From positions 1-64,000 of the forward strand of contig JACDDS010000007.1 in the NCBI GenBank assembly GCA_013816805.1: a stretch of 64,000 nt of DNA. Reading direction: 5' to 3'. Shown in pieces: positions 218 through 37,789 of the stretch (position 1 is its first letter; each line of letters begins with the position of its first letter). The stretch comes from Chitinophagales bacterium. GTDB lineage: Bacteria > Bacteroidota > Bacteroidia > Chitinophagales > UBA10324. Below the pieces are notes generated by a model, which saw only the letters and a program-made list of their open reading frames with translations, searched no databases and had not been told where the DNA came from. A program made the position numbers and the translations under genes.

Positions 218-1750
218 TCATTCCTTCAATATCTTTTCCGTGATTTCTCCCCGATCCGTTTCGGCTTTAAGCAAGTAAACTCCTGCTGGTTGATCCATAA
301 GATTGATAAAAGCATGAACAAAACCATTAACCGGCTGCAGGGTGGTACCATAGATTAAATTACCTACGGTATTATAAATGCTGATAAGCACTTCATGGTT
401 AACTCCTGTTATGCTGAGTTGCGCTTTCTTATAGCAGGGATTGGGATAAATGCTTTGGGTAAAAGCAACATCATTTATTGGCGGTAGTGCCGTAAAGGTT
501 GTATCGCAGGCGCTGCCTTCGAGAGCGCCAAGGTGATAGTTGGGCATATTTGGGAATCCACTAGCCCAAGCGTTATAGTAAAGGGTATTCGGAATAACAA
601 ATTGATTTTGTACAAAATTGCATTTCTTTCCTGCTGAATCAGGTGAATTAATAACATGCAGTGAATGATTACCATCATAGCTACAGATATAAATTGTACC
701 ATCAGGTGCAAGTGCATGATTGTAAAAATTAACCGGTAATGGATTTAGAAAACCATTGTACTTATCAATAAGTATTCTGCTCGTTTCAATATCCGCTGAC
801 TGCAGATCAAACTGAAATAAATAATTCCAATGATTGGCGCTAATGTATGCAAATCGTCCTGATGGCGAGAACGATTGTCCTTCGAGTTGATAAAGAGTAT
901 CACTTACTTTAATTTGCTTTCTATTGCTTAATTCTCCGCTGCATCGGTCAAAATCATACAGCTCAAATACGGTCGAATCTCCATTGTTTTTAATAAAATG
1001 GGTTCCCTGCTGGTTAAATTTCATATTTCCAAAAACACCTCCCCCACCAGCATTTATACCGTTATAAGACATACCTATATCCTGACTGTATGGACCATGA
1101 ATTCCATCTTTATCGATTAGAAACCTATAATATCTGCTTGTTCCATATTCATGACAAATTAGCCACCAGTCCCGTCCATTACCATGCTTAACTCCTTCCA
1201 CTCCATTGTTGATAAGGGTATCTTCTAAAATGACAATTTCCTTTTGATTTTCTATAACTACCCCATTGCCATTATTTCCGGATATATCTACTACATCGCT
1301 AAATAAATGTGTGCTGATTAATAAGTTTCCATATGGTGGCACATTGATATAGTTAAGATCAGTATGAATGATATAGTATTTATTTGGATCATTTGGAAAT
1401 GGTATTATCATAGTCCCATCGGGTATTGCCAATGCATCATAGCCATAACTTAAATAATCGCCAATATTCAAGCTATCGCCATTTTCCATGATTTGAAGAT
1501 CTCTATTGAATATACCAAAGCCATTGGTGTAAAACATCAACTGACCGTTCGTATCACAAAGGCTTGAATTCGTAACGTCAATATAATTATTACCAGTATG
1601 AAAAGTTATTGCCTGAGGTGGTTCATAATTGAAATCTATTCCCGAACCAAAGCCGTCTATCCATTGATTGTATTCGTTTTGAGCAAAACAGGCAAATTTC
1701 CAGAATATCACCAATACAAGTACAATTGAAATTTTAGAATATAATTTCAT
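218..1750 (-). CDS. Secreted beta-propeller-like protein with T9SS sorting domain
   Basis: 510 residues. A signal peptide (about 1-23, ending CFAQ) is followed by a long stretch of short blade-like repeats (about 40-410) with phrases such as FSPSGRFAYIS and LAPDGTIYICSYDG, which are typical of seven-bladed lactonase-like propellers in Bacteroidota. The last ~75 residues begin with a YPNP motif and end in a charged KILKE tail, the pattern of a type A T9SS C-terminal domain, so it is probably exported across the outer membrane and anchored or released. The start ATG shares one base with the stop of the upstream 2203-residue gene (TAATG), so the two are almost certainly co-transcribed and translationally coupled. 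No catalytic residues are recognised; ligand binding or a structural role is inference. Confidence 0.85.
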   Translation of the reverse strand: MKLYSKISIVLVLVIFWKFACFAQNEYNQWIDGFGSGIDFNYEPPQAITFHTGNNYIDVTNSSLCDTNGQLMFYTNGFGIFNRDLQIMENGDSLNIGDYLSYGYDALAIPDGTMIIPFPNDPNKYYIIHTDLNYINVPPYGNLLISTHLFSDVVDISGNNGNGVVIENQKEIVILEDTLINNGVEGVKHGNGRDWWLICHEYGTSRYYRFLIDKDGIHGPYSQDIGMSYNGINAGGGGVFGNMKFNQQGTHFIKNNGDSTVFELYDFDRCSGELSNRKQIKVSDTLYQLEGQSFSPSGRFAYISANHWNYLFQFDLQSADIETSRILIDKYNGFLNPLPVNFYNHALAPDGTIYICSYDGNHSLHVINSPDSAGKKCNFVQNQFVIPNTLYYNAWASGFPNMPNYHLGALEGSACDTTFTALPPINDVAFTQSIYPNPCYKKAQLSITGVNHEVLISIYNTVGNLIYGTTLQPVNGFVHAFINLMDQPAGVYLLKAETDRGEITEKILKE

Positions 1751-4700
1751 TAATGAATTATTAAAATTTTTGCTGTCTTTAATGGGTTATTTGAAGAAAT
1801 ATTAATTGCTAAACAGCCAGAAGCAATGGATTGTGTATTCACTCTAAGAGATCGCTGACCTGCTGGAATCGTTGTCTTCAAAACTATCGTTCCTAATAAA
1901 TCGTAGCCTAAAAGAACGATTTCAGAATCGTAAGGCTGCAAAAGTTCTATTATAAACGACTTATCTGCAGGATTTGGATAGATTTTAAAAGTTTGAGATC
2001 CAAAATTTTCATCAAATGGTTCTTCTTCTCGACAAGACATTGAACATTCACTTGTTGCAGTAGAATTAGCTTCTCTTCCTTTTATCTGATATTGATCGAC
2101 TGTACCTCCCGTATAGTAATTGTAACTATTTATATATATAGAATTATCGCAGGGACTTCCACTATGAGGATAATAAATCCTGGTCAATCCTCCATTAGAA
2201 CTACTGGAATAGGTTTGCCACGCATTTGTACCATCGTAAAAAGATGCGGGCTCCCAGCTATTACTTGAAAATTTTTGACTGCTGCCAATATTTCCTGCAT
2301 TAGCCAAATTGCTTAATGCAAATCCATAGTGGTTTTTAAAGAATCTATTACAAAAAATTGGAGCATCTCCATCGATTTCTGAACCACTTAATGTTAGGCC
2401 TTTATTAACGCCGTCCATCTCGTTCTGTTCCACATCAAAATCTGTTGCGTTTTCAAGATAAAGGCCCGTAGTACCTGAAGTATAGTTAGTTACAGAGCTT
2501 CCATAACCAATAGTATTGTTATTGACTTTGGAACCATCGCCTCCTATAATTTTAATTCCATAAGTGCTTACCGGGTTACTGCTGCTCATGTTAATGACAG
2601 TGCCGTAGCTTTGGACATTACTGTTAATAGCTTCTATGCCAATGCTTGCCGAATTTATAGTATTGGCTAAACTCAGATTTGAAGGATCGCCAAAAATAAA
2701 AGTAGAAATGCCTTCAAGATATATTGCACTTCCGGCATTGCTGCTTCCGCTAAAAGTATTGGAAGTGACCGAGGCATCAAAGCCGAACCGGTAATCTTCA
2801 AGATGTAACTGCTGATTGTTGTTTTGAAAGGTTGCAGAATTGATAACCATTCTGGAATCTTTTGTTGAAAAGATGGCTGTGGTGGCATCCTTGATAATGG
2901 GGCTTGAGGAGCTGCCACTTTTATTTATAATAAGACCATCATCGTTCCGTAGATTCCCTTCTATATCAATACCGTCCCACATGCCGCTGCAGGCCCCCTT
3001 CAACTGAGTACCGTTGGAGACCGTTAGCTGGCAGTTCGGCTCTATAATAATCTTTGCGCCGGGACCAAAAGAAATATTGGAGCAGTTATCCAGTGTAAGA
3101 TTTAGATTAATTAAGAAAAGCCCGTTTATAGTTATGGTGTTGCTGTAATTTTTAATTTCTGCCACATCATCCAGGGATATACCATTAGTGGTAAAGTAAG
3201 TATAAGTGCCGTTTAAAAATTCGACTAGATCGTATGCTGTTAAATAGTTACTTCCGCTTTGACCCGTTTGAAGATAATCATTGGAAAATGGATAATAAGC
3301 ATTACTACCAGTGCAACAATCCAGCACATGAACGGTAACCTGGTCAGTAGTTGCGGTGCAACCGGGAGGAGTGGCAGTTAAGCTATATGTATAGTCCCCT
3401 GAACTGCTGGTAGGAGGTGTAAATTTAGGGTTCGCAGTGGTAGTGGAATTCAGATAAGGAGAATGTGCTCCGGACCAAACCAGGGTTTGAGAAGGATATG
3501 AGATTGTGCCACCTAACTGCGGATGATTATCATCCTGATTTCTTAAACATACATATACATCAGGTCCTGCATCTGCCTTAGGGTATACGGAAGCCGTAAC
3601 CGTTTGTTCATTACAGTAACATTTGCCATCGGTGCCGTTTACGACGTACGTAGTGGTGGTTTGGGGATGTACCTCTACCGATGTGCCTTCACTGGTATGC
3701 ACAAGCGGATTGCTTGATGGAACATACATATCCACCGAAGGGTACCAATTAAATTTAGAGCCTGACGCCGCCCCGGATTCGGATAAGGTTACTGCATTAC
3801 CAGGACAGATGGTAGAAGGAGAATTAACAGTATAAGCAGGCGCCATGCCTACCTGAATCTGAAGATCAATGGAAAGGCCTGATGCAAAGGCCGAGCCTGT
3901 AGCACCAACACTGTAAGTAGTGGTAGCACCAGGCTTTAGAATGGCCGTTGCTGTCGGTTTGTTATAGGTGATGGAAGCGGGAGCAGGATTGATGAAGTAC
4001 TCGGTTCCCCCACTAAGGTAGAGGGTAACGCTATCCCCAGGGCATACGGAAGTGTTGGAAACTTGTATATTCGGCGTAAGCTGATAAGTAAATGGTAAGT
4101 TATCGAGCGAGTTTTTGATTAAGGTTATGCTATAAGCAGGTAAGATAATAAATGACGAAGGAGAGGCTCCCAGAGATGCCGTGGTCTCCTTTATTTCTCC
4201 TGAATGACCGGTAATAAACCCAAGGGGATTTAACGAAGTGGTATAACCGGGATCCTGCGTAGCTTGAACATACTGCCCGCCGCAAGGATATAATCCACTA
4301 GTATAAATAAAGGTGCTGGCCCCGGTGAGGTTTAAAATTACCGCTATATTACTGTCGGTAATAGAATACTCTTGGTTTTCATCCGCCGTACTGCTAAACA
4401 TCCAACCATAAACGCCGGGATAATAATTACCATCTTTATCTTTATTCTGCGTGGCGCCGGGAACAGTTATTTCTCTTGCTGTACGTGCATTTTTTGCCGC
4501 TAAGCCAATGTACCTTATGCCTGCACCGCTTGCCGCAAGGGCATATTTAACAGTTGCAGGACCAGAGGAGCCAAAACCATTGTCATCCTCAAACAATCCG
4601 CCTTTTGTTGCATCGGCTATCATGGTATGGAAAGTAACATGAGTGATTTGTGTATCGTTAAGAAACCGTAATGCCATTGCAGCAACAAAAAGGCTGTGTG

Positions 4701-7700
4701 CCCAGCGCCCGGCAAGGTTATATGTTCCATCATCTAAATTAAATTCTGTAATCCAGCCTTCTTTATTATAATCAGTAAGCAATTTAAATTGTTCCTGCAG
4801 GTCGTTAACGGGGTCATAAGCTTCCAGATCCTGGAAAGCAACGAATGGTTCGCTAAAAACTATAGGAAGTACTGTGTTCCATAAAGTTACTAAATCATAG
4901 TCGTCCAAGTTTTCTGATGAGATTCCAGGAATTGATTTATCGAGCCCTGTAGGAGGGTATACGTGAAAGGTAAGGGCGTCAATATTGTCCATATATCCGT
5001 TTACAAAAAGATGATTATTCCATTCGTTTCTTCGTTCGGAGGGTGGAGATAGTTTTGTGGTAGCAGCAACCGCAGCGGTTTTAATACCGGGAAAATACTT
5101 TTTTATCAATGTGCTCCATCCGTGGGCCGATTTTGCATAATTATCGGTTCCGGTTTCGAAACGTATATTGGTTTCCATTCCATCGAGATAAAATTCATTT
5201 CCTAGCTCAGCATATCTTACTGCCAATCCAAGGCAATGTGCCTTGAATAATTCTCCAACCTGTGTACCGCTATCTGAGGTCACGAGGTTAAGAGCAAAAA
5301 TGGGAATGGCAGCAGTTCCATCGGTCAGGAACCGTAAATCCTGTAAGGTATTTGGCAACGGCGAAGCTGAATTATTATCCCAGGGTAAACCATCCTGGGC
5401 GAAATCGGGGAGCGGAAAAGGATCGTAAAAGGTTCGTGCATCACCGCTTGAGGAAGCTGTGGTAAAAGTGTAAGGATTATAACTGGTATTATAAAGCGGA
5501 TTGTTGTAACCACGGAACCAGCCGGTTCTCCAGTTCCACCAATTTGAAATACTTCCTCCCGGATACCGTACTAAATCCGGGTGCATAGCAGGAGCCTTCG
5601 TTGGAGGTCCTGCGTCAACTCCTTTACCTGTACCTAATCCAATATCACCCTTTGTTATATTTTCTCCGTTATTTCCTAGGTAGTCTTCACATTTTCGCGA
5701 CTGAGGAGCAAGATTTGGATTTAAGATGGCAATGAAATAAAATCCACATGCACTAATTGCAATATATCCCACTGTAGCCAAAGTAAAATTCCCGTTAAAT
5801 GAAGAAATGTTTGCATTTCCACCTGAAAGAAATATCCCATTTAAAGCAGAAGTGCCAGATGTGGTGATATCATCGCGAACCCTAAAATAAACCTGGTTAA
5901 AATTTATCCCTATTAATTTAATGGTTCCGGAAGTTACCGATAACGATCCATTTATATCAAAAATAAAATACGAATTTATATCACCTTGTAACTTCAAAGT
6001 ATCAGTCAAGGTAGCATTTCCGGTAATCCTATAAATGCCAGAGGAATAAGTTTGACTGTTTAAGATAGCTGATATGGATGTCGCGGAAAGCTGTGAAATT
6101 TTAGTTCTTGCAGTATCGGCATGACGCAAAGCCAAATTTACGATAGATGTATTAATTAAGATTGAATCGCTGGCATAAACACTATCCACAGATGAACCTG
6201 AACCTACAGCACCTTCTACATTAATAATACAATTGGAACTACTAATATTTCCTTGCGCAAGCAAAGGGAATCTCTTGACAGATTTAATATCGAAACCAGT
6301 TACCGTTACTTTAACCGTATCGAATCCTATGGAACCATCTGCATCAGTGACACGTAAGTAATATTGAATGGTGGAAAACGGTATGGCATGCGGATTTGAT
6401 ACACTTGCATTATCCAGCGCATAAGAGGTAACCCATTGATATGTAAATGGAGATATGCCCCCGGTAGCGGCTGGAGTGCCGCCAAGAGTAACCGAGGAAC
6501 CTAAGGAAATAGTTGCGTCGTTTCCAGCGTGTGCATAGACCGCGGATGATCGTTTGCCAATCGTAAAATAGCTCAATGCATTTACTGAATTGTTTGATTG
6601 CATGCTGCCGCTCGATATTGTACCTGTTACCACCACAGGTCCGGTATTATTCCATTTTCCTCCATCCCATTTTGCAATCCTTAATGAGGGTGTAGTTACA
6701 ATATCACAAGTACTATTATCCCAGTACAGAGTTACCTTAATTAAGCTAGTGCCTAACGTCCTTTTCAACATCCAATACTCACATTTACTAATATAGGTTA
6801 ATGAATCTTTTTTAATACTTACATTTTGTTCCGTATTAAAGTATTCAGCTCTAAAAGCATCGGTGGTCAATGACGGTGCAGTAATCGCAATTGGTTTGTA
6901 GAGACTTCCCTTCCCCACAGGAAATGTAAACGAAGTATTCCCAATCTTTATGACCGGTCCTTTGACAAAGCTACTATTAGAAACACTAGTGGCTGTTGCT
7001 CCACTCCTTAGCGTTAAAACATTGGTTGTGTCCGTAATAATATAACCATTGACTAAATCCAAATTATTAGAAACTGAAACTGCCTTCTGCAACGTTATCT
7101 GTCCCCCATTTTTATCCACCACCATCTTATACAACTGTGGTGATACTGCACCATAGATAGCCTGAGCATTTGTACCGGTGAATTTGAAAGTCGTATTCCC
7201 TATGGAAGTTAATGACGTATTGTTCCATTTAATATCCTTCAATATTTTAAGAGTTCCGCCATTGATGATACAGTCAGCGCTTTGCGAGGTAACGAATGTA
7301 TCAGCTACTTGTACGGTACCGGAAATAGTGTGTATTCCTCCTAAGCCAAACATTTCCAGGTCGTAGAACTTCATGGTACCGGATGAACTATTCTTCAAGG
7401 TGTTATTGTAGTAGCACATCACCCGTGAGGTTCCTTCATTGACTGTTCCTGCGATATACTCCCACATGGTGCTTCCACCCATACCTATTCTCCCCATTAA
7501 GGTTACCGTTCCTCCTGTTTTATTAAATTGAATATTTGGAAGCTTCCCCGAGATGCTACTTCCCTGGTTATCATTAATAGTTTGGGTACCCGTGCCATTG
7601 ACAATGATAGTGACTGTTCCACCTCCCACGGATGCTGTGTTGGAACTTAAAATATTACCCGGTACTTCAATGGTTGAGCTGGTGGTGGTGTTCAAAAAGA

Positions 7701-8361
7701 GTTGATTGCTTCCAGAAAGTGTCAGCTTATGATCCACCTCAAGGGTAATGTTCTTAATAGTAAACTGTGTTGTTTGTGATGGAGCAGTAAATTCAGCATC
7801 ATAGAAGATGTAGCGACTAGTGTTGGCTGATGAATTGATAACGGTAGTAGTGTTTGAGGCTTTTTTGAAAACAACTTTACCACTGTTGTGGGTGAAGCTT
7901 CCGGTTTTAAGCGTTACATCACCTGCTAGGGTCATGGTACCGGACGTACTGGCGAAAGCGGTTCCGTCAATAGTAAATGAGCTATTGCAGTTGATGGTAG
8001 CACTGCCACCACTGAAGGTGCCCCCTTTCAGGCTACCGATATCAAAGGTGAGGGTCTTGCCTGTATTAAGAGAAACGGTGCCGGTGTAGGCTGAGGTCAT
8101 GGTTATTTTCCCAACGGTTATATTAGTATCCATCACCGCATTGGTTGTAGCACAACTTCCATTGAAAAGTATGGTATCTACAGAAGTCGGAAACACCGTT
8201 GCTACTGCACCGGTGCAGCTGCCGATACAGTAATTGCTCTTTATCTTCATGCTGGTAGAACTACCTTGTGGTTTCCAGTAGAAGTTTTGCTGTGAGTAAC
8301 TATTTGATGAAATGGAAAAGAGTAGAGAAAAAAGAAGTGAGGACAGTAATAGTTTTTTCAT
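1750..8361 (-). CDS. Giant secreted mosaic: ice-binding-like + GH-A-like glycosidase + Ig-like + beta-helix + T9SS tail
   Basis: 2203 residues. Order: signal peptide (1-23); Gly/Thr/Ser-rich beta-repeat region (about 30-480); an Ig/PKD-like unit (about 607-692); a DUF3494/ice-binding-like domain (about 695-885, with YSSGIYRI, GDINSYFIFDI and FNQVYFRV); a (beta/alpha)8 glycosidase-like domain (about 925-1395) with RYPGGSISNWW, AELGNEF (E1056, likely acid/base) and WITEFNL (E1206, likely nucleophile), as in clan GH-A families such as GH51/GH79; three Ig-like units starting with CPGD/CPGN motifs (about 1430-1680); right-handed beta-helix repeats (about 1690-2080); and a type A T9SS domain starting IYPNPADKSF. 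The substrate cannot be assigned. The ice-binding fold is also used for adhesion, so ice binding itself is uncertain. It lies between a small secreted protein gene and a coupled propeller gene. Confidence 0.85.
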   Translation of the reverse strand: MKKLLLSSLLFSLLFSISSNSYSQQNFYWKPQGSSTSMKIKSNYCIGSCTGAVATVFPTSVDTILFNGSCATTNAVMDTNITVGKITMTSAYTGTVSLNTGKTLTFDIGSLKGGTFSGGSATINCNSSFTIDGTAFASTSGTMTLAGDVTLKTGSFTHNSGKVVFKKASNTTTVINSSANTSRYIFYDAEFTAPSQTTQFTIKNITLEVDHKLTLSGSNQLFLNTTTSSTIEVPGNILSSNTASVGGGTVTIIVNGTGTQTINDNQGSSISGKLPNIQFNKTGGTVTLMGRIGMGGSTMWEYIAGTVNEGTSRVMCYYNNTLKNSSSGTMKFYDLEMFGLGGIHTISGTVQVADTFVTSQSADCIINGGTLKILKDIKWNNTSLTSIGNTTFKFTGTNAQAIYGAVSPQLYKMVVDKNGGQITLQKAVSVSNNLDLVNGYIITDTTNVLTLRSGATATSVSNSSFVKGPVIKIGNTSFTFPVGKGSLYKPIAITAPSLTTDAFRAEYFNTEQNVSIKKDSLTYISKCEYWMLKRTLGTSLIKVTLYWDNSTCDIVTTPSLRIAKWDGGKWNNTGPVVVTGTISSGSMQSNNSVNALSYFTIGKRSSAVYAHAGNDATISLGSSVTLGGTPAATGGISPFTYQWVTSYALDNASVSNPHAIPFSTIQYYLRVTDADGSIGFDTVKVTVTGFDIKSVKRFPLLAQGNISSSNCIINVEGAVGSGSSVDSVYASDSILINTSIVNLALRHADTARTKISQLSATSISAILNSQTYSSGIYRITGNATLTDTLKLQGDINSYFIFDINGSLSVTSGTIKLIGINFNQVYFRVRDDITTSGTSALNGIFLSGGNANISSFNGNFTLATVGYIAISACGFYFIAILNPNLAPQSRKCEDYLGNNGENITKGDIGLGTGKGVDAGPPTKAPAMHPDLVRYPGGSISNWWNWRTGWFRGYNNPLYNTSYNPYTFTTASSSGDARTFYDPFPLPDFAQDGLPWDNNSASPLPNTLQDLRFLTDGTAAIPIFALNLVTSDSGTQVGELFKAHCLGLAVRYAELGNEFYLDGMETNIRFETGTDNYAKSAHGWSTLIKKYFPGIKTAAVAATTKLSPPSERRNEWNNHLFVNGYMDNIDALTFHVYPPTGLDKSIPGISSENLDDYDLVTLWNTVLPIVFSEPFVAFQDLEAYDPVNDLQEQFKLLTDYNKEGWITEFNLDDGTYNLAGRWAHSLFVAAMALRFLNDTQITHVTFHTMIADATKGGLFEDDNGFGSSGPATVKYALAASGAGIRYIGLAAKNARTAREITVPGATQNKDKDGNYYPGVYGWMFSSTADENQEYSITDSNIAVILNLTGASTFIYTSGLYPCGGQYVQATQDPGYTTSLNPLGFITGHSGEIKETTASLGASPSSFIILPAYSITLIKNSLDNLPFTYQLTPNIQVSNTSVCPGDSVTLYLSGGTEYFINPAPASITYNKPTATAILKPGATTTYSVGATGSAFASGLSIDLQIQVGMAPAYTVNSPSTICPGNAVTLSESGAASGSKFNWYPSVDMYVPSSNPLVHTSEGTSVEVHPQTTTTYVVNGTDGKCYCNEQTVTASVYPKADAGPDVYVCLRNQDDNHPQLGGTISYPSQTLVWSGAHSPYLNSTTTANPKFTPPTSSSGDYTYSLTATPPGCTATTDQVTVHVLDCCTGSNAYYPFSNDYLQTGQSGSNYLTAYDLVEFLNGTYTYFTTNGISLDDVAEIKNYSNTITINGLFLINLNLTLDNCSNISFGPGAKIIIEPNCQLTVSNGTQLKGACSGMWDGIDIEGNLRNDDGLIINKSGSSSSPIIKDATTAIFSTKDSRMVINSATFQNNNQQLHLEDYRFGFDASVTSNTFSGSSNAGSAIYLEGISTFIFGDPSNLSLANTINSASIGIEAINSNVQSYGTVINMSSSNPVSTYGIKIIGGDGSKVNNNTIGYGSSVTNYTSGTTGLYLENATDFDVEQNEMDGVNKGLTLSGSEIDGDAPIFCNRFFKNHYGFALSNLANAGNIGSSQKFSSNSWEPASFYDGTNAWQTYSSSSNGGLTRIYYPHSGSPCDNSIYINSYNYYTGGTVDQYQIKGREANSTATSECSMSCREEEPFDENFGSQTFKIYPNPADKSFIIELLQPYDSEIVLLGYDLLGTIVLKTTIPAGQRSLRVNTQSIASGCLAINISSNNPLKTAKILIIH

Positions 8362-21045: not shown

Positions 21046-24000
21046 TTACTTCACAGGAACGGGCCGCTTTGACTGAGGTGTTTCTGCCTTTAATACTTTC
21101 TTCCTGGTAAGATCTACCACAATTGGCGTAGCTACAAAAATGGAAGAGTAGGTCCCAAATGAAATACCAAGCAAGAGTGCAAAAGAGAATCCCCGTATAA
21201 CGTCACCTCCAAAAATAAACAGGATGAGCAGTACCAGCAACACGGTAGAGGAGGTGATAACTGTTCGGTTCAGCGTCATATTGATGGCGTCATTTATTGT
21301 CTTCTTAGTATCCATCAGCGGATGCTCACGTAAAAATTCGCGGATACGGTCAAAAACAATTACGGTATCTGCTACTGAGTAACCCATTACAGTAAGGCAT
21401 GCCGCAACAAATGACTCATCGACTTCTAAAGAAAAAGGCACAATGCCATGTAACAACGAATAGGCACCCATCACCATTAATACGTCATGCGCAAGGGAGA
21501 TAATTGCACCAAGCGCGAACTGCCATTTACGGAACCGGAGCAGGATGTAGAGAAATATCCCAATTAAAGAAAACAAGATTGCCTTATACGCGCTGTGAAG
21601 TATATCCGCAGAAATGCTCGGACCCACTACCTGTGAGCTCAATTGATTCTTCTTTAAAAAAGTATCATAATCTTCATTCCCTACAAATTTTTGTAACCCC
21701 GAAAATAGTTTCGCATTTACAATGCTATCAGCTCTCGAAGTGGTTTCGTTTACATTATATCCGGTAGTTATTTTTACCTTATTGTTAGCTCCATACGTTT
21801 TTACTTCAGGCGCTACTCCTCCAAATGCATTGGTAAGTTCCGCTTTAACACTTTCTGTTGTTACATCCTGATCGAATTGTACGATATAGGATCTGCCTCC
21901 ACTGAAGTCAACACCATAATCGAACCCTTTAGTAAAAATGGAGATTAAACCGATTACAGCAAGTGTACCGGAAATGATGTACGCATATTTTCTTTTATTT
22001 ACGAACTGAATATTAAGGTTGGTAAGGTTAAACCTGCTTACGGGAGTGGAGAACTTTATATTCATACCACGTTTTAGCATCCAGTCAAAAATCAGATGCG
22101 CCAGGAACACAGCTGTGAACAGGGTCATAATTACACCGATATTCAAAGTAGTGGCATAGCCTAATACAGGGCCTAAGCCAAAGTAAGCAAGTATTAAACC
22201 GGTGATGAGAGTAGTTAAATGCGTATCGAAAACAGCGGAGTAAGATTTGGTGTGACCGTCAGATACCGCTTTAGCGAGGTTTTTCCCTTTAGCTAATTCT
22301 TCCTTTATACGCTCGTGAATCAGAACATTCGCATCCACTGCCATACCCATAGTAAGAACAATACCTGCAATACCGGGCAGCGTAAGCGTGGCGCCTAAGG
22401 ATGCAAGTACCCCTACAATAAAAAAGAGGTTGAAGAAAAGAGCTATATCAGAAATAATCCCGGAGGAGCCATAATAAAGCACCATAAATACAAGGATTGC
22501 AATAAAGGCAATAACAATAGAGCGAATACCAGCCTGAATAGATTCTTGTCCCAGTGATGGACCTACCACATCTTCTGCAATAATGCTGGCAGGAGCCGGC
22601 AGCTTTCCTGTCTGTAAGATATTAGCTAAGTCCTTTGCTTCATCTACACTAAATCCTCCCGTAATCGAAGACCTTCCGTTAGGAATCTCACCATTAACTT
22701 TCGGAGCAGAATAGACGTAATCATCAAGTACTATTGCAATGTATTTATTGATGTTTTTACTGGTCATTATCTTCCAGGTTTTTGCGCCCTGGTTATTCAT
22801 AGACATGGAAACTTCCTGGTTGCCATTAAGATCCACATCCTGCCTTGCACTGGTTACCTGATCTCCTTCGAGGGGAGCCTTATCAGTCCCAACAGGTTTC
22901 TTAATTGCATACAGTTCATAGACATTATTCTTAGCATCATAGGGCTTGGCACTCCACAAAAATTTAACGTCGCGGGGAAAATTTGCGCGAATAAAATCCA
23001 TCTGCAGATATTCATTAACCCTGGCAGTATCCCTGCCGAGGCATTTTCCGACCATGGGACTTGGAGCCCATTTAACCTGGTTATCTGCAGGATCCTGATA
23101 TAAGTTCGGAGATAAAATTGTAAAAAGAGGATTATCCTTTGCACCTCGTTGTGCATCGGCCGCAGCCGTGGCGCTGGTATCTTTATTTGTTAATGAACCG
23201 GTATCCTTAATAGCGGATGCATTTAATTCAGAAGATTTATCACTATCGGAAACTGACTGTAAAGGGTTATTGGATGCATTCAATCCACCGTTCACCAGCG
23301 GGTTGTCAGATGAATCTTTTTTTGCCGTAGTATCTGAAAGAGAGAGATGGTTTTTAAGAGCAGTATTCGCTGCCTCCAGATATGGATGAAAATCCTGGTT
23401 ATCATAAGTCTCCCAGAATTCAAGAATAGCACTTGCCTGCAGTAATTTTCGCACCCTTTTCGGATTATCAACCCCCGGTAATTCTACGATAATGCGGCCT
23501 GTAGTGGGTTGTGCAGTAATGTTTGGCTGTGTTACGCCAAACTTATCGATGCGCGAACGGAGAATATTAAACGTACGGTCAAATGATCCTGATTCTTCGG
23601 TCTTAATAAATTTCAAGACCTCCTCATTGGTTGAATTAAATTTAATTTTATCTTGGTTCGACCTGGTAGAAAAAACTGAAGCCAGCTTTCCGTTTGGAGC
23701 TACTTCATTCCAGGCCTGGCCAAATAAAGTCACAAAGTCTGCTTCCGGCTGTGCACGCAGTTTAACTTTTGTCAGTTCAAGTGCTTTTATAAAAGTTGGA
23801 TCAGTGCTGTTATCTGCAAGCCCTTTAATAAGATCTGCAATAGAAACCTGCAGCACGACATTCATTCCACCTTGCAAGTCGAGGCCAAGATTTAATTGCT
23901 GATCTTTACAGTCCTGATAGGTATATTTTGCAATACCAATATTATAAATGGTTTGGTTTGAAATGGAGTCAAGGTAAACCTGACGCTTCTTTCTGATCTG

Positions 24001-24198
24001 CAGTAATAAAGAATCTTTCACTACTGCATTATTAGCAGGCAGAGCAGACCCAATAGATTTACCATTTAGTACACTGTTTTCTGCAAAATTCTGAGCTTTC
24101 TTTTCAGCATTGCTTGTTACAAAGTTGAAGGATAACTGGTATAGACAAATCAGGATCAACGCTATTGAAAAAAACGTGATCAATCCTTTTCCTCGCAT
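21046..24198 (-). CDS. secDF: SecD-SecF fusion, protein translocase accessory subunit
   Basis: 1050 residues. Fused SecD and SecF, common in Bacteroidota; it uses the proton gradient to pull exported proteins through SecYEG. SecD half: first membrane helix (about 7-26), LGLDLQGGMNVVLQV motif, large periplasmic domain (about 120-560) with a low-complexity Ser/Asp/Asn insert (about 290-350), then a helix bundle including GMAVDANVLIHERIKEEL. SecF half from about residue 735 with FDYGVDFSGGRSYIVQF and SVADTVIVFDRIREFL. About twelve helices in total. The low-complexity insert is longer than in the separate SecD I know. Promoter box at 24231-24238. Confidence 0.96.
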   Translation of the reverse strand: MRGKGLITFFSIALILICLYQLSFNFVTSNAEKKAQNFAENSVLNGKSIGSALPANNAVVKDSLLLQIRKKRQVYLDSISNQTIYNIGIAKYTYQDCKDQQLNLGLDLQGGMNVVLQVSIADLIKGLADNSTDPTFIKALELTKVKLRAQPEADFVTLFGQAWNEVAPNGKLASVFSTRSNQDKIKFNSTNEEVLKFIKTEESGSFDRTFNILRSRIDKFGVTQPNITAQPTTGRIIVELPGVDNPKRVRKLLQASAILEFWETYDNQDFHPYLEAANTALKNHLSLSDTTAKKDSSDNPLVNGGLNASNNPLQSVSDSDKSSELNASAIKDTGSLTNKDTSATAAADAQRGAKDNPLFTILSPNLYQDPADNQVKWAPSPMVGKCLGRDTARVNEYLQMDFIRANFPRDVKFLWSAKPYDAKNNVYELYAIKKPVGTDKAPLEGDQVTSARQDVDLNGNQEVSMSMNNQGAKTWKIMTSKNINKYIAIVLDDYVYSAPKVNGEIPNGRSSITGGFSVDEAKDLANILQTGKLPAPASIIAEDVVGPSLGQESIQAGIRSIVIAFIAILVFMVLYYGSSGIISDIALFFNLFFIVGVLASLGATLTLPGIAGIVLTMGMAVDANVLIHERIKEELAKGKNLAKAVSDGHTKSYSAVFDTHLTTLITGLILAYFGLGPVLGYATTLNIGVIMTLFTAVFLAHLIFDWMLKRGMNIKFSTPVSRFNLTNLNIQFVNKRKYAYIISGTLAVIGLISIFTKGFDYGVDFSGGRSYIVQFDQDVTTESVKAELTNAFGGVAPEVKTYGANNKVKITTGYNVNETTSRADSIVNAKLFSGLQKFVGNEDYDTFLKKNQLSSQVVGPSISADILHSAYKAILFSLIGIFLYILLRFRKWQFALGAIISLAHDVLMVMGAYSLLHGIVPFSLEVDESFVAACLTVMGYSVADTVIVFDRIREFLREHPLMDTKKTINDAINMTLNRTVITSSTVLLVLLILFIFGGDVIRGFSFALLLGISFGTYSSIFVATPIVVDLTRKKVLKAETPQSKRPVPVK

Positions 24199-36766: not shown

Positions 36767-37789
36767 ATGATTGAAAAAATTCTGCCGATGAAAAAATTTA
36801 CACCTCTTTTTATACTCGTTTTTGCCTACTGTTCTTTATCCTTTGCCCAGGATATTCACTATTCTCAGTTTTATTCCTCACCCCTTTCACTTAACCCTGC
36901 ATTGACGGGAATCAATGACTGCAACTACCGTGTCGGCGTTATGTACCGTAACCAATGGAAAAGCGTATCCATTCCTTATAAGACACCATCAATTTCATTT
37001 GACATTAATAATGTTTTACCAAAAATTATTAAAAGCGGGATTTTATCACTGGGCGTAATAGTAATAAATGACCAGGCAGGAGAGGGTGCTTTAACCAATC
37101 TCAGCATTTTAGGATCTATTGCTTATCAGCATGGTTTTGCCGATAATAAATTTAATCTTTCATTAGGCGTGCAGGGAGGATATGTGCAAAAACGAATTGA
37201 TCCTTCCAAACTCACTTTTGAAACCCAGTTTAATGGTACTTCTTTCGATCCGGCTCTTTCAAATGGAGAAAATATAGATGATAAATTCGGGTATGCCGAC
37301 TTTAATGCAGGTATATATCTTTCTTATAGTCCTACTCATGCAGTTGATATTTTTCTGGGCGATGCTCAGAGCCATCTTACCACTCCGAAGGAGACTTTTC
37401 TGAGCGGAACAAATGACTTGCATTTAAGAACCACCATTCACGGAGGTTTACGGATTGGCGTTACAGACAAGCTTAGCATTATTCCACAGGCACTGTACCT
37501 GATGCAGTCCAAGGCAAGAGAGACAAACCTCGGTCTGGGATTAGCTTATGCCTTTACACCCGATGTTCATTTGTATGCCGGAGTTTATGATCGAATAAAG
37601 GATGCAATCATTCCGCAAATAGGATTTGAATATAAACGTGTGCGGTTGGGATTAAGCTATGATATCAATACTTCTTCCCTTCATAATATAGCAAGCGGAA
37701 ACAGTGCTTTTGAAATTTCACTGATGTATACAGGATGCCTTGGTAATATTACACTTGATCAGCCCGTTATGTTTTGTCCCAGATACTAG
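36767..37789 (+). CDS. PorP/SprF-like outer-membrane protein
   Basis: 340 residues; ATG 36767 is used, but the ATG at 36788 (MKKFTPLF) gives a cleaner signal peptide ending SLSFAQ. The mature start DIHYSQFYSSPLSLNPALTG and VGVMYRNQWKSVS are the family signature; the rest is strand-rich (outer-membrane barrel). In Bacteroidota these proteins work with T9SS for surface attachment and gliding adhesins. The OmpA-family gene follows 25 bases downstream, the usual arrangement. Confidence 0.92.
   Translation: MIEKILPMKKFTPLFILVFAYCSLSFAQDIHYSQFYSSPLSLNPALTGINDCNYRVGVMYRNQWKSVSIPYKTPSISFDINNVLPKIIKSGILSLGVIVINDQAGEGALTNLSILGSIAYQHGFADNKFNLSLGVQGGYVQKRIDPSKLTFETQFNGTSFDPALSNGENIDDKFGYADFNAGIYLSYSPTHAVDIFLGDAQSHLTTPKETFLSGTNDLHLRTTIHGGLRIGVTDKLSIIPQALYLMQSKARETNLGLGLAYAFTPDVHLYAGVYDRIKDAIIPQIGFEYKRVRLGLSYDINTSSLHNIASGNSAFEISLMYTGCLGNITLDQPVMFCPRY

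Follow-up and report, generated by a model that had tools for sequence, protein, structure and literature searches.

An ice-binding-fold domain joined to a predicted GH-A-type glycosidase in a putatively exported protein of a Chitinophagales bacterium

We analysed a 64,000-nucleotide stretch of a Chitinophagales bacterium (GenBank assembly GCA_013816805.1, contig JACDDS010000007.1, positions 1 to 64,000; hereafter the window) and found that one of its genes encodes a long protein in which a DUF3494 domain of the ice-binding protein (IBP) fold is followed by a clan GH-A-type glycosidase domain and, at the C terminus, by a sorting domain of the type IX secretion system (T9SS). We favour the reading, with a probability of about 0.55, that this protein is a retaining glycosidase whose IBP-fold module is an accessory part, either a spacer or a binder of a glycan or surface, and would no longer serve mainly for ice. 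Our observations cover the family to which the module belongs, the folds predicted for both domains, the conservation of the glutamates, the recurrence of the fusion, one exchange of the enzyme for a GH16 domain and a shared N-terminal region, here called the chassis; that the enzyme is catalytic, that the module is an accessory and that ice binding was lost we infer. A first-pass annotation of this DNA had described the mosaic of an IBP-fold domain, a GH-A-type enzyme with two glutamates and a T9SS tail, and that description stood; the PKD unit and the all-beta N-terminal region (about residues 24-606) were absent from its account. The parts of the gene are as follows.

1750..8361, minus strand: whole gene, 2203 residues, one open reading frame (ORF) from ATG to stop
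8293..8361, minus strand: putative signal peptide, about residues 1-23, judged by eye from a basic start and a hydrophobic run
6544..8292, minus strand: N-terminal chassis, residues 24-606, predicted all beta from the AlphaFold model of residues 23-690
6301..6528, minus strand: PKD domain, residues 612-687 (PF22352, 29.8 bits, cut-off 27)
5707..6294, minus strand: DUF3494 or ice-binding-fold domain, residues 690-885 (PF11999 match and predicted fold)
4057..5706, minus strand: predicted glycosidase domain, clan GH-A fold plus C-terminal beta domain, about residues 886-1435 (structure match and family profile)
5194..5196, minus strand: codon of E1056, predicted acid/base (ELGNE, after beta-4; conservation and model position)
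4744..4746, minus strand: codon of E1206, predicted nucleophile (WITEF, beta-7; conservation and model position)
3580..3831, minus strand: uncertain Ig-like unit, residues 1511-1594 (PF19081, 21.7 bits, under the cut-off of 27.3)
1759..1983, minus strand: T9SS C-terminal sorting domain, residues 2127-2201 (PF18962, 28.8 bits, cut-off 27)

The residue numbers of the PKD, Ig-like and sorting domains were shifted by +1, as the Pfam query began at residue 2.

The DUF3494 pattern had been read by eye at about residues 695-885. When residues 690-881 were scanned alone, PF11999 (Ice_binding) scored 57.1 bits (cut-off 28.7), and the genome search gave 54.9 bits for the same module. Phmmer with the module retrieved three ice-binding or antifreeze chains from the PDB (E 1-2e-4), and a profile of the clade's DUF3494 domains retrieved 25 distinct PDB sequences (best E 2.4e-21), 24 of which are named ice-binding, antifreeze or DUF3494. 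An AlphaFold model was then computed for residues 688-1470 with 35 relatives (mean pLDDT 80.5, pTM 0.71); its alignment, A3, held the window protein, five fusion proteins and 30 of 37 non-redundant relatives, with seven omitted. Model residues 1-194 superimposed on the IBP 7bwx with Z 28.2 and an rmsd of 1.6 A over 191 aligned residues, and FfIBP 4nu2, LeIBP 3uyu and others scored Z 25-28. The module is predicted to be a beta-solenoid with a bracing helix, model helix 52-70 lying among the strands, so that the hidden Markov model (HMM) match and the predicted fold both confirm the DUF3494 assignment. One might suspect an artefact, in which a beta-rich stretch scores by chance as PF11999 beside an unrelated barrel, since PF11999 went unreported when the whole protein was scanned with Pfam. 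This is extremely improbable, as the segment scan, genome search, profile search and fold agree and the fusion recurs in four genomes. Within the clade the module is weakly conserved, and outside the host family the closest relatives of its DUF3494 subtype were found in genomes G052, G040 and G019. In the last of these, contig C70 (locus L229:1-7140) encodes a very long protein that begins with two diverged DUF3494 domains in tandem.

The enzyme domain was identified by remote similarity. Residues 880-1418 matched no Pfam family at E up to 10, the curated GH51 and GH79 models included, an NCBIfam scan reported no model for this domain or for the IBP-fold module, and phmmer with the domain found no PDB chain. 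A profile built from 36 relatives, however, matched GH51 arabinofuranosidases in the PDB (best E 2.6e-11, 2c7f), with a weak match to the GH79 chain 5bwi (E 0.046). In the HMM comparison with glycosidase families that the first pass had asked for, there was thus a remote profile match to GH51 chains and no Pfam assignment. Model residues 195-731 matched GH51 3ug3 (Z 29.1, rmsd 3.4 A, 415 residues) and GH79 enzymes (Z about 26), and arabinofuranosidases ranked at the top in Foldseek (E 3e-15). The strands and helices of the model fit the (beta/alpha)8 barrel of clan GH-A, in which the acid/base follows beta-4 and the nucleophile lies at beta-7. In the model, E1056 stands just after beta-4 in ELGNEF and E1206 on beta-7 in WITEFN. 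Both glutamates were invariant in 23/23 sequences (the window protein and homologues from similarity searches). In the larger set of named loci plus the window, E1056 was glutamate in 83/83 and both were glutamate in 73/73 proteins with both columns, the second column being outside the aligned stretch of the other ten, which are short or split; this set was retrieved by patterns containing both glutamates, so only the 23/23 count is free of bias. Together, an IBP fold and a TIM barrel were both predicted, and by their strand positions and the likeness to GH51 the glutamates would face a pocket, which agrees with the GH-A-like enzyme and the E1056/E1206 pair proposed at first. We consider it highly probable that the domain is a retaining glycosidase, in which E1056 would give the proton and E1206 would attack the sugar.

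The enzyme family occurs in genomes labelled cyanobacteria, actinomycetes, proteobacteria, Bacteroidota and others. In a class-wide search with profile A1, in which three candidates were scored per genome, the catalytic part was matched at E <=2e-27 in at least 11 non-host genomes, and none of these eleven was among the PF11999-positive genomes, both among the matches listed. The overall tally of that search (306/395 genomes) was not used; most of the listed matches covered profile positions from about 400-470 to 513, which form its Ig-like tail. Stand-alone enzymes of about 470-520 residues were seen in cyanobacteria (L073, L075, L076, L087), Acidithiobacillus (L100, L108) and metagenome-assembled genomes (MAGs) of actinomycetes (L107, L112). 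None of four stand-alone members (L087, L104, L107, L122) reached any Pfam cut-off.

We asked how often the two domains occur together. The host genome carries nine copies of the enzyme domain and five PF11999 domains, and all five of the latter directly precede an enzyme domain, four in the same frame and one split (C1:406759-408767, with module and enzyme now in two ORFs). Two host fusion copies, L046 (G000:C21) and L052 (G000:C1:401000-414000), are interrupted, one within the chassis and the other between module and enzyme. Across the 16 genomes of the host family, 12 PF11999 domains were found in five genomes, and ten of them lie before a GH-A-like enzyme (host five, G001 two, G004 two, G008 one), nine of these pairs in one open frame and one split over two ORFs. 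The remaining two are a module before a GH16 domain (G004) and a stand-alone IBP (G013, 216 bits). No stand-alone PF11999 protein was found in the other 15 family genomes, some of which are incomplete. Among named genomes, the fusion is carried by the Chitinophagales MAGs known as SKYG5, SKYG18 and CAN_BIN04. Of the 76 named loci, the 71 others gave nothing with the clade DUF3494 profile. The fusion was therefore not confined to the window, and the architecture that the first pass had proposed to look for in other genomes recurs in four genomes, the host's included.

As a control, we picked 20 PF11999 proteins with frames above 1000 residues, among the matches listed, out of 16 further genomes belonging to the class. 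By the local profile, 17 carried two PF11999 copies, two carried one and one carried three, and the domains lay at or near the N terminus, except one of the triple. In most of them Pfam reported units of the Ig, PKD, cadherin-like or FG-GAP kind; 19/20 had a T9SS-type tail, and none of the 20 a glycosidase family (E below 1e-5). As a GH51-like domain would escape Pfam too, we also searched these proteins with the local enzyme profile; it matched two of the 20, both in repeats and at no more than 27 bits per stretch, whereas true members score at least 500 bits. Elsewhere, L227 combined PF11999 and a PKD unit without a glycosidase, and L228 and L229 gave no enzyme match with two local profiles, a search that did not include a Pfam scan.

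We then examined the region in front of the module. An AlphaFold model of residues 23-690 (mbc42843e8d44) was all beta with a mean pLDDT of 72.2, and the sole Foldseek match to the N-terminal region with E <0.001 was a phage tail tube protein at a TM-score of 0.14; we describe this predicted fold as all beta and claim nothing more specific. In the host genome (G000), residues 23-606 matched in the five fusion copies only, at 83-87% identity. DNA similarity to three host copies stops near gene nucleotide 1720-1840, and for L046 it spans most of the gene. Synonymous divergence (dS) in the chassis was 0.69-0.97 between the window gene and L051, L052 and L053 and among these three; downstream of the chassis it was at least 1.8 or saturated, and the protein identity of window and L051 dropped to 29-34%. 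These values suggest that the chassis may have been homogenised among the copies while module and enzyme diverged. Between the window gene and L046, however, the chassis dS was saturated too (284 codons), and therefore constraint alone may explain part of the chassis similarity.

The chassis is also found with the enzyme alone. In L085, L093, L094 and L097 its second half is joined to the enzyme with fewer than 30 residues between, and in L091 with about 150, and none of these five showed PF11999 by Pfam or the clade profile. The enzyme thus exists without the module, and a protein of chassis and enzyme that was already there either gained the module by insertion or lost it. In a tree of 37 enzymes (23 rows from A1 plus 14 taken from the 82 named proteins, the split copy L052 being omitted from A1 and tree alike), the PF11999-linked enzymes were divided into the window protein with one host copy and seven others; a single clade was not rejected (p-AU 0.26), and therefore we claim neither one gain nor two. 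In one protein, G004:C152 (L059:2404-5652), the module stands before a GH16 domain instead (PF00722, 58.2 bits), whose likeness in the PDB is to laminarinases and beta-1,3-glucanases. The chassis of this protein is present in two pieces, at 47% and 54% identity.

Since the domain family is named for ice binding, we compared its surface motifs. T-A/G-x-T/N is the threonine-rich motif of the ice-binding face, though no strict criterion of the family. Eleven clade domains were aligned with 21 strongly scoring PF11999 domains, one of them the G013 protein. At site 2, G-T/A was in register in 21/21 strongly scoring domains and 0/11 clade domains; at site 3, TGA in 20/21 and 0/11; and at site 1, TGxT in 12/21 and 0/11. 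One clade row fitted a loose T/S-A/G/T-x-T/S/N pattern at site 2. Each of the 21 contained one to seven copies of T-A/G-x-T/N, compared with none in seven and one in four of the 11 clade domains. Threonine made up 7.2% of the clade sequences and 13.6% of the strongly scoring ones, and D/E/K/R 14.8% and 9.4%, respectively, the last 230 residues of each of the 21 being counted. By analogy, we place the three threonine-rich stretches on the ice-binding b-face, because A/S/T columns are described there in PMC12337378 (section 20 and Table 3). The absence of these motifs counts as evidence against ice binding, short of proof.

These comparisons bear on an ice-anchored enzyme, in which DUF3494 would hold the glycosidase or the cell at ice surfaces or brine veins where polysaccharide collects. 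Such an anchor would be in keeping with the family and predicted fold of the module, the strongly scoring stand-alone protein of G013 comes from the same family of genomes, and the G-T one column off at site 2 in three of the 11 clade domains, that of the window protein among them, would speak for it as well. But the in-register motifs are missing at all three sites in 11/11 domains, threonine is scarcer and charged residues are commoner than in the strongly scoring set, the module precedes two unrelated glycosidases, and 15 of 16 family genomes, though some are incomplete, gave no stand-alone PF11999 protein. We therefore regard an ice anchor as quite unlikely, and it is likely that the module serves mainly for something other than ice. 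The first-pass proposal that the protein might hold the cell on ice gained no support, although it is not refuted. Its other half, holding on to a glycan and digesting it, fits the module placed before GH16, in one protein of one genome.

As a further test of the ice reading, growth temperature was estimated from composition, using the IVYWREL and (E+K)/(Q+H) formulas on 72-220 kb per genome. The IVYWREL values, all with wide intervals, were 36 C in the host, 55 and 57 C in the fusion-bearing G001 and G008, and 5 and 28 C in G003 and G012, which have no PF11999 match. 16S rRNA was found in one of the nine genomes checked for this purpose, and four tRNA genes turned up in the sampled stretches. 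Nothing on the habitat of the SKYG and CAN_BIN04 isolates was found in the open-access literature.

If not for ice, the module could be an inert beta-solenoid without a ligand, whose sole role is to hold the enzyme out from the cell surface. The adjoining PKD unit and all-beta N-terminal region would suit a spacer of this kind, as would the poor conservation of the module in the clade, with 5/210 columns invariant. On the other hand, all five host copies and the GH16 protein retain the module, though PKD or Ig units could suffice for extension, and we consider a purely inert spacer unlikely. Our favoured reading is that the gene product would be a T9SS-exported, cell-surface or released retaining clan GH-A glycosidase of GH51/GH79-like type, its catalytic domain carried behind a chassis of all-beta region, PKD unit and IBP fold. 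In this clade the fold would have turned from ice into an accessory module of glycosidases, acting as a rigid spacer or offering a flat face to which a surface or an insoluble glycan could bind, in the manner of a carbohydrate-binding module (CBM). That the module binds a glycan or surface we put forward only tentatively; equally tentative is the idea that the IBP fold was recruited as a substrate-targeting, CBM-like module on an exchangeable chassis with either a GH51-like GH-A or a GH16 enzyme. Because of the GH51/GH79 likeness, our guess is that the substrate might be an arabinose- or uronate-containing polysaccharide.

Several points weigh against this reading. Catalysis and module role are predictions from sequence and models. 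The GH16 swap is a single case from a 72%-complete genome with an interrupted chassis, and its motif reads EIDFFD; the usual GH16 motif ends in E, and with D in place of the final E this domain may be weak or inactive. The (E+K)/(Q+H) ratio runs in the opposite direction to IVYWREL, so that the composition estimates conflict. The 21 comparison domains were hand-picked high scorers, and the sites came from sequence alignment, not coordinates. At site 2, three of the 11 clade rows, including the window, carry G-T one column later, and a shifted remnant of the ice motif is therefore possible in these rows. Finally, some proven IBPs lack repetitive motifs, as stated in the title on a Colwellia antifreeze protein cited in PMC12337378, and motif loss is therefore no proof of lost ice binding.

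Export through the T9SS is very probable. The sorting domain PF18962 is above its cut-off, which bears out the T9SS tail seen at first, while NCBIfam did not report TIGR04183 for the 2203-residue protein. The Ig-like units fared less clearly, as a PF19081 signal is present but below threshold. For the C-terminal beta-helix also proposed, the whole-protein scan gave no Pfam model, and no test was aimed at a beta-helix. The neighbour directly downstream (window 218-1750, 510 residues) has a T9SS sorting domain as well, and the window encodes a PorP/SprF-type T9SS membrane protein (36767-37789) and a SecDF fusion (21046-24198). No SusC or SusD of a polysaccharide-utilisation locus was found among the seven larger window ORFs and one small neighbour scanned.

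We compared the protein with known systems. It resembles DUF3494 IBPs (7bwx, 4nu2, 3uyu) in Pfam match and predicted fold, but the clade module lacks the in-register threonine-rich stretches of strongly scoring domains and lies inside a long protein, before a glycosidase in 11/11. In other Bacteroidota, DUF3494 likewise occurs in long surface proteins, beside units of Ig, PKD or cadherin-like type and, in 19/20, with a T9SS-type tail, but there the module is N-terminal, mostly in two copies, and none of the 20 has a glycosidase match. GH51 alpha-L-arabinofuranosidases (3ug3, 2c7f, 1pz2) share the barrel and C-terminal beta domain (Z 28-29), and the GH51 acid/base sits in GNE, as does that of the window enzyme; the latter differs in its 11-14% identity, its nucleophile in W-I-T-E-F/Y-N and the missing Pfam match. 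GH79 beta-glucuronidase and heparanase (7psk, 5bwi) have the same barrel, with the weaker profile match. The enzyme family, although without a Pfam model, may already hold a CAZy number. A viral structure library contained Hyperionvirus DUF3494 proteins and phage glycosidases and no named fusion, among the matches listed; the giant Hyperionvirus DUF3494 proteins A0A3G5AEI1, A0A3G5A745 and A0A3G5ACG7 of BFVD were among the best viral structure matches. A protein of the alga Ancylonema (PMC10796529) likewise has DUF3494 fused to a second folded domain, a root cap domain, but this partner is a beta-sandwich rather than an enzyme, and ice affinity served to enrich the protein. In the available portions of PMC9133084, PMC8306469 and PMC12420790, DUF3494 and glycosidases are mentioned separately, and no report of a DUF3494 or ice-binding domain fused to a glycosidase was found in the open-access literature, among the matches listed. 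The same literature showed neither the repeated occurrence of this combination within a family nor the exchange of the catalytic domain behind a shared chassis, among the matches listed; the parts are of known kinds.

PF11999 is usually read as 'ice-binding'. If our reading is right, the fold would be a more general binding or scaffold module and, possibly, a new carbohydrate-binding module, which would caution against equating every PF11999 gene with cold adaptation.

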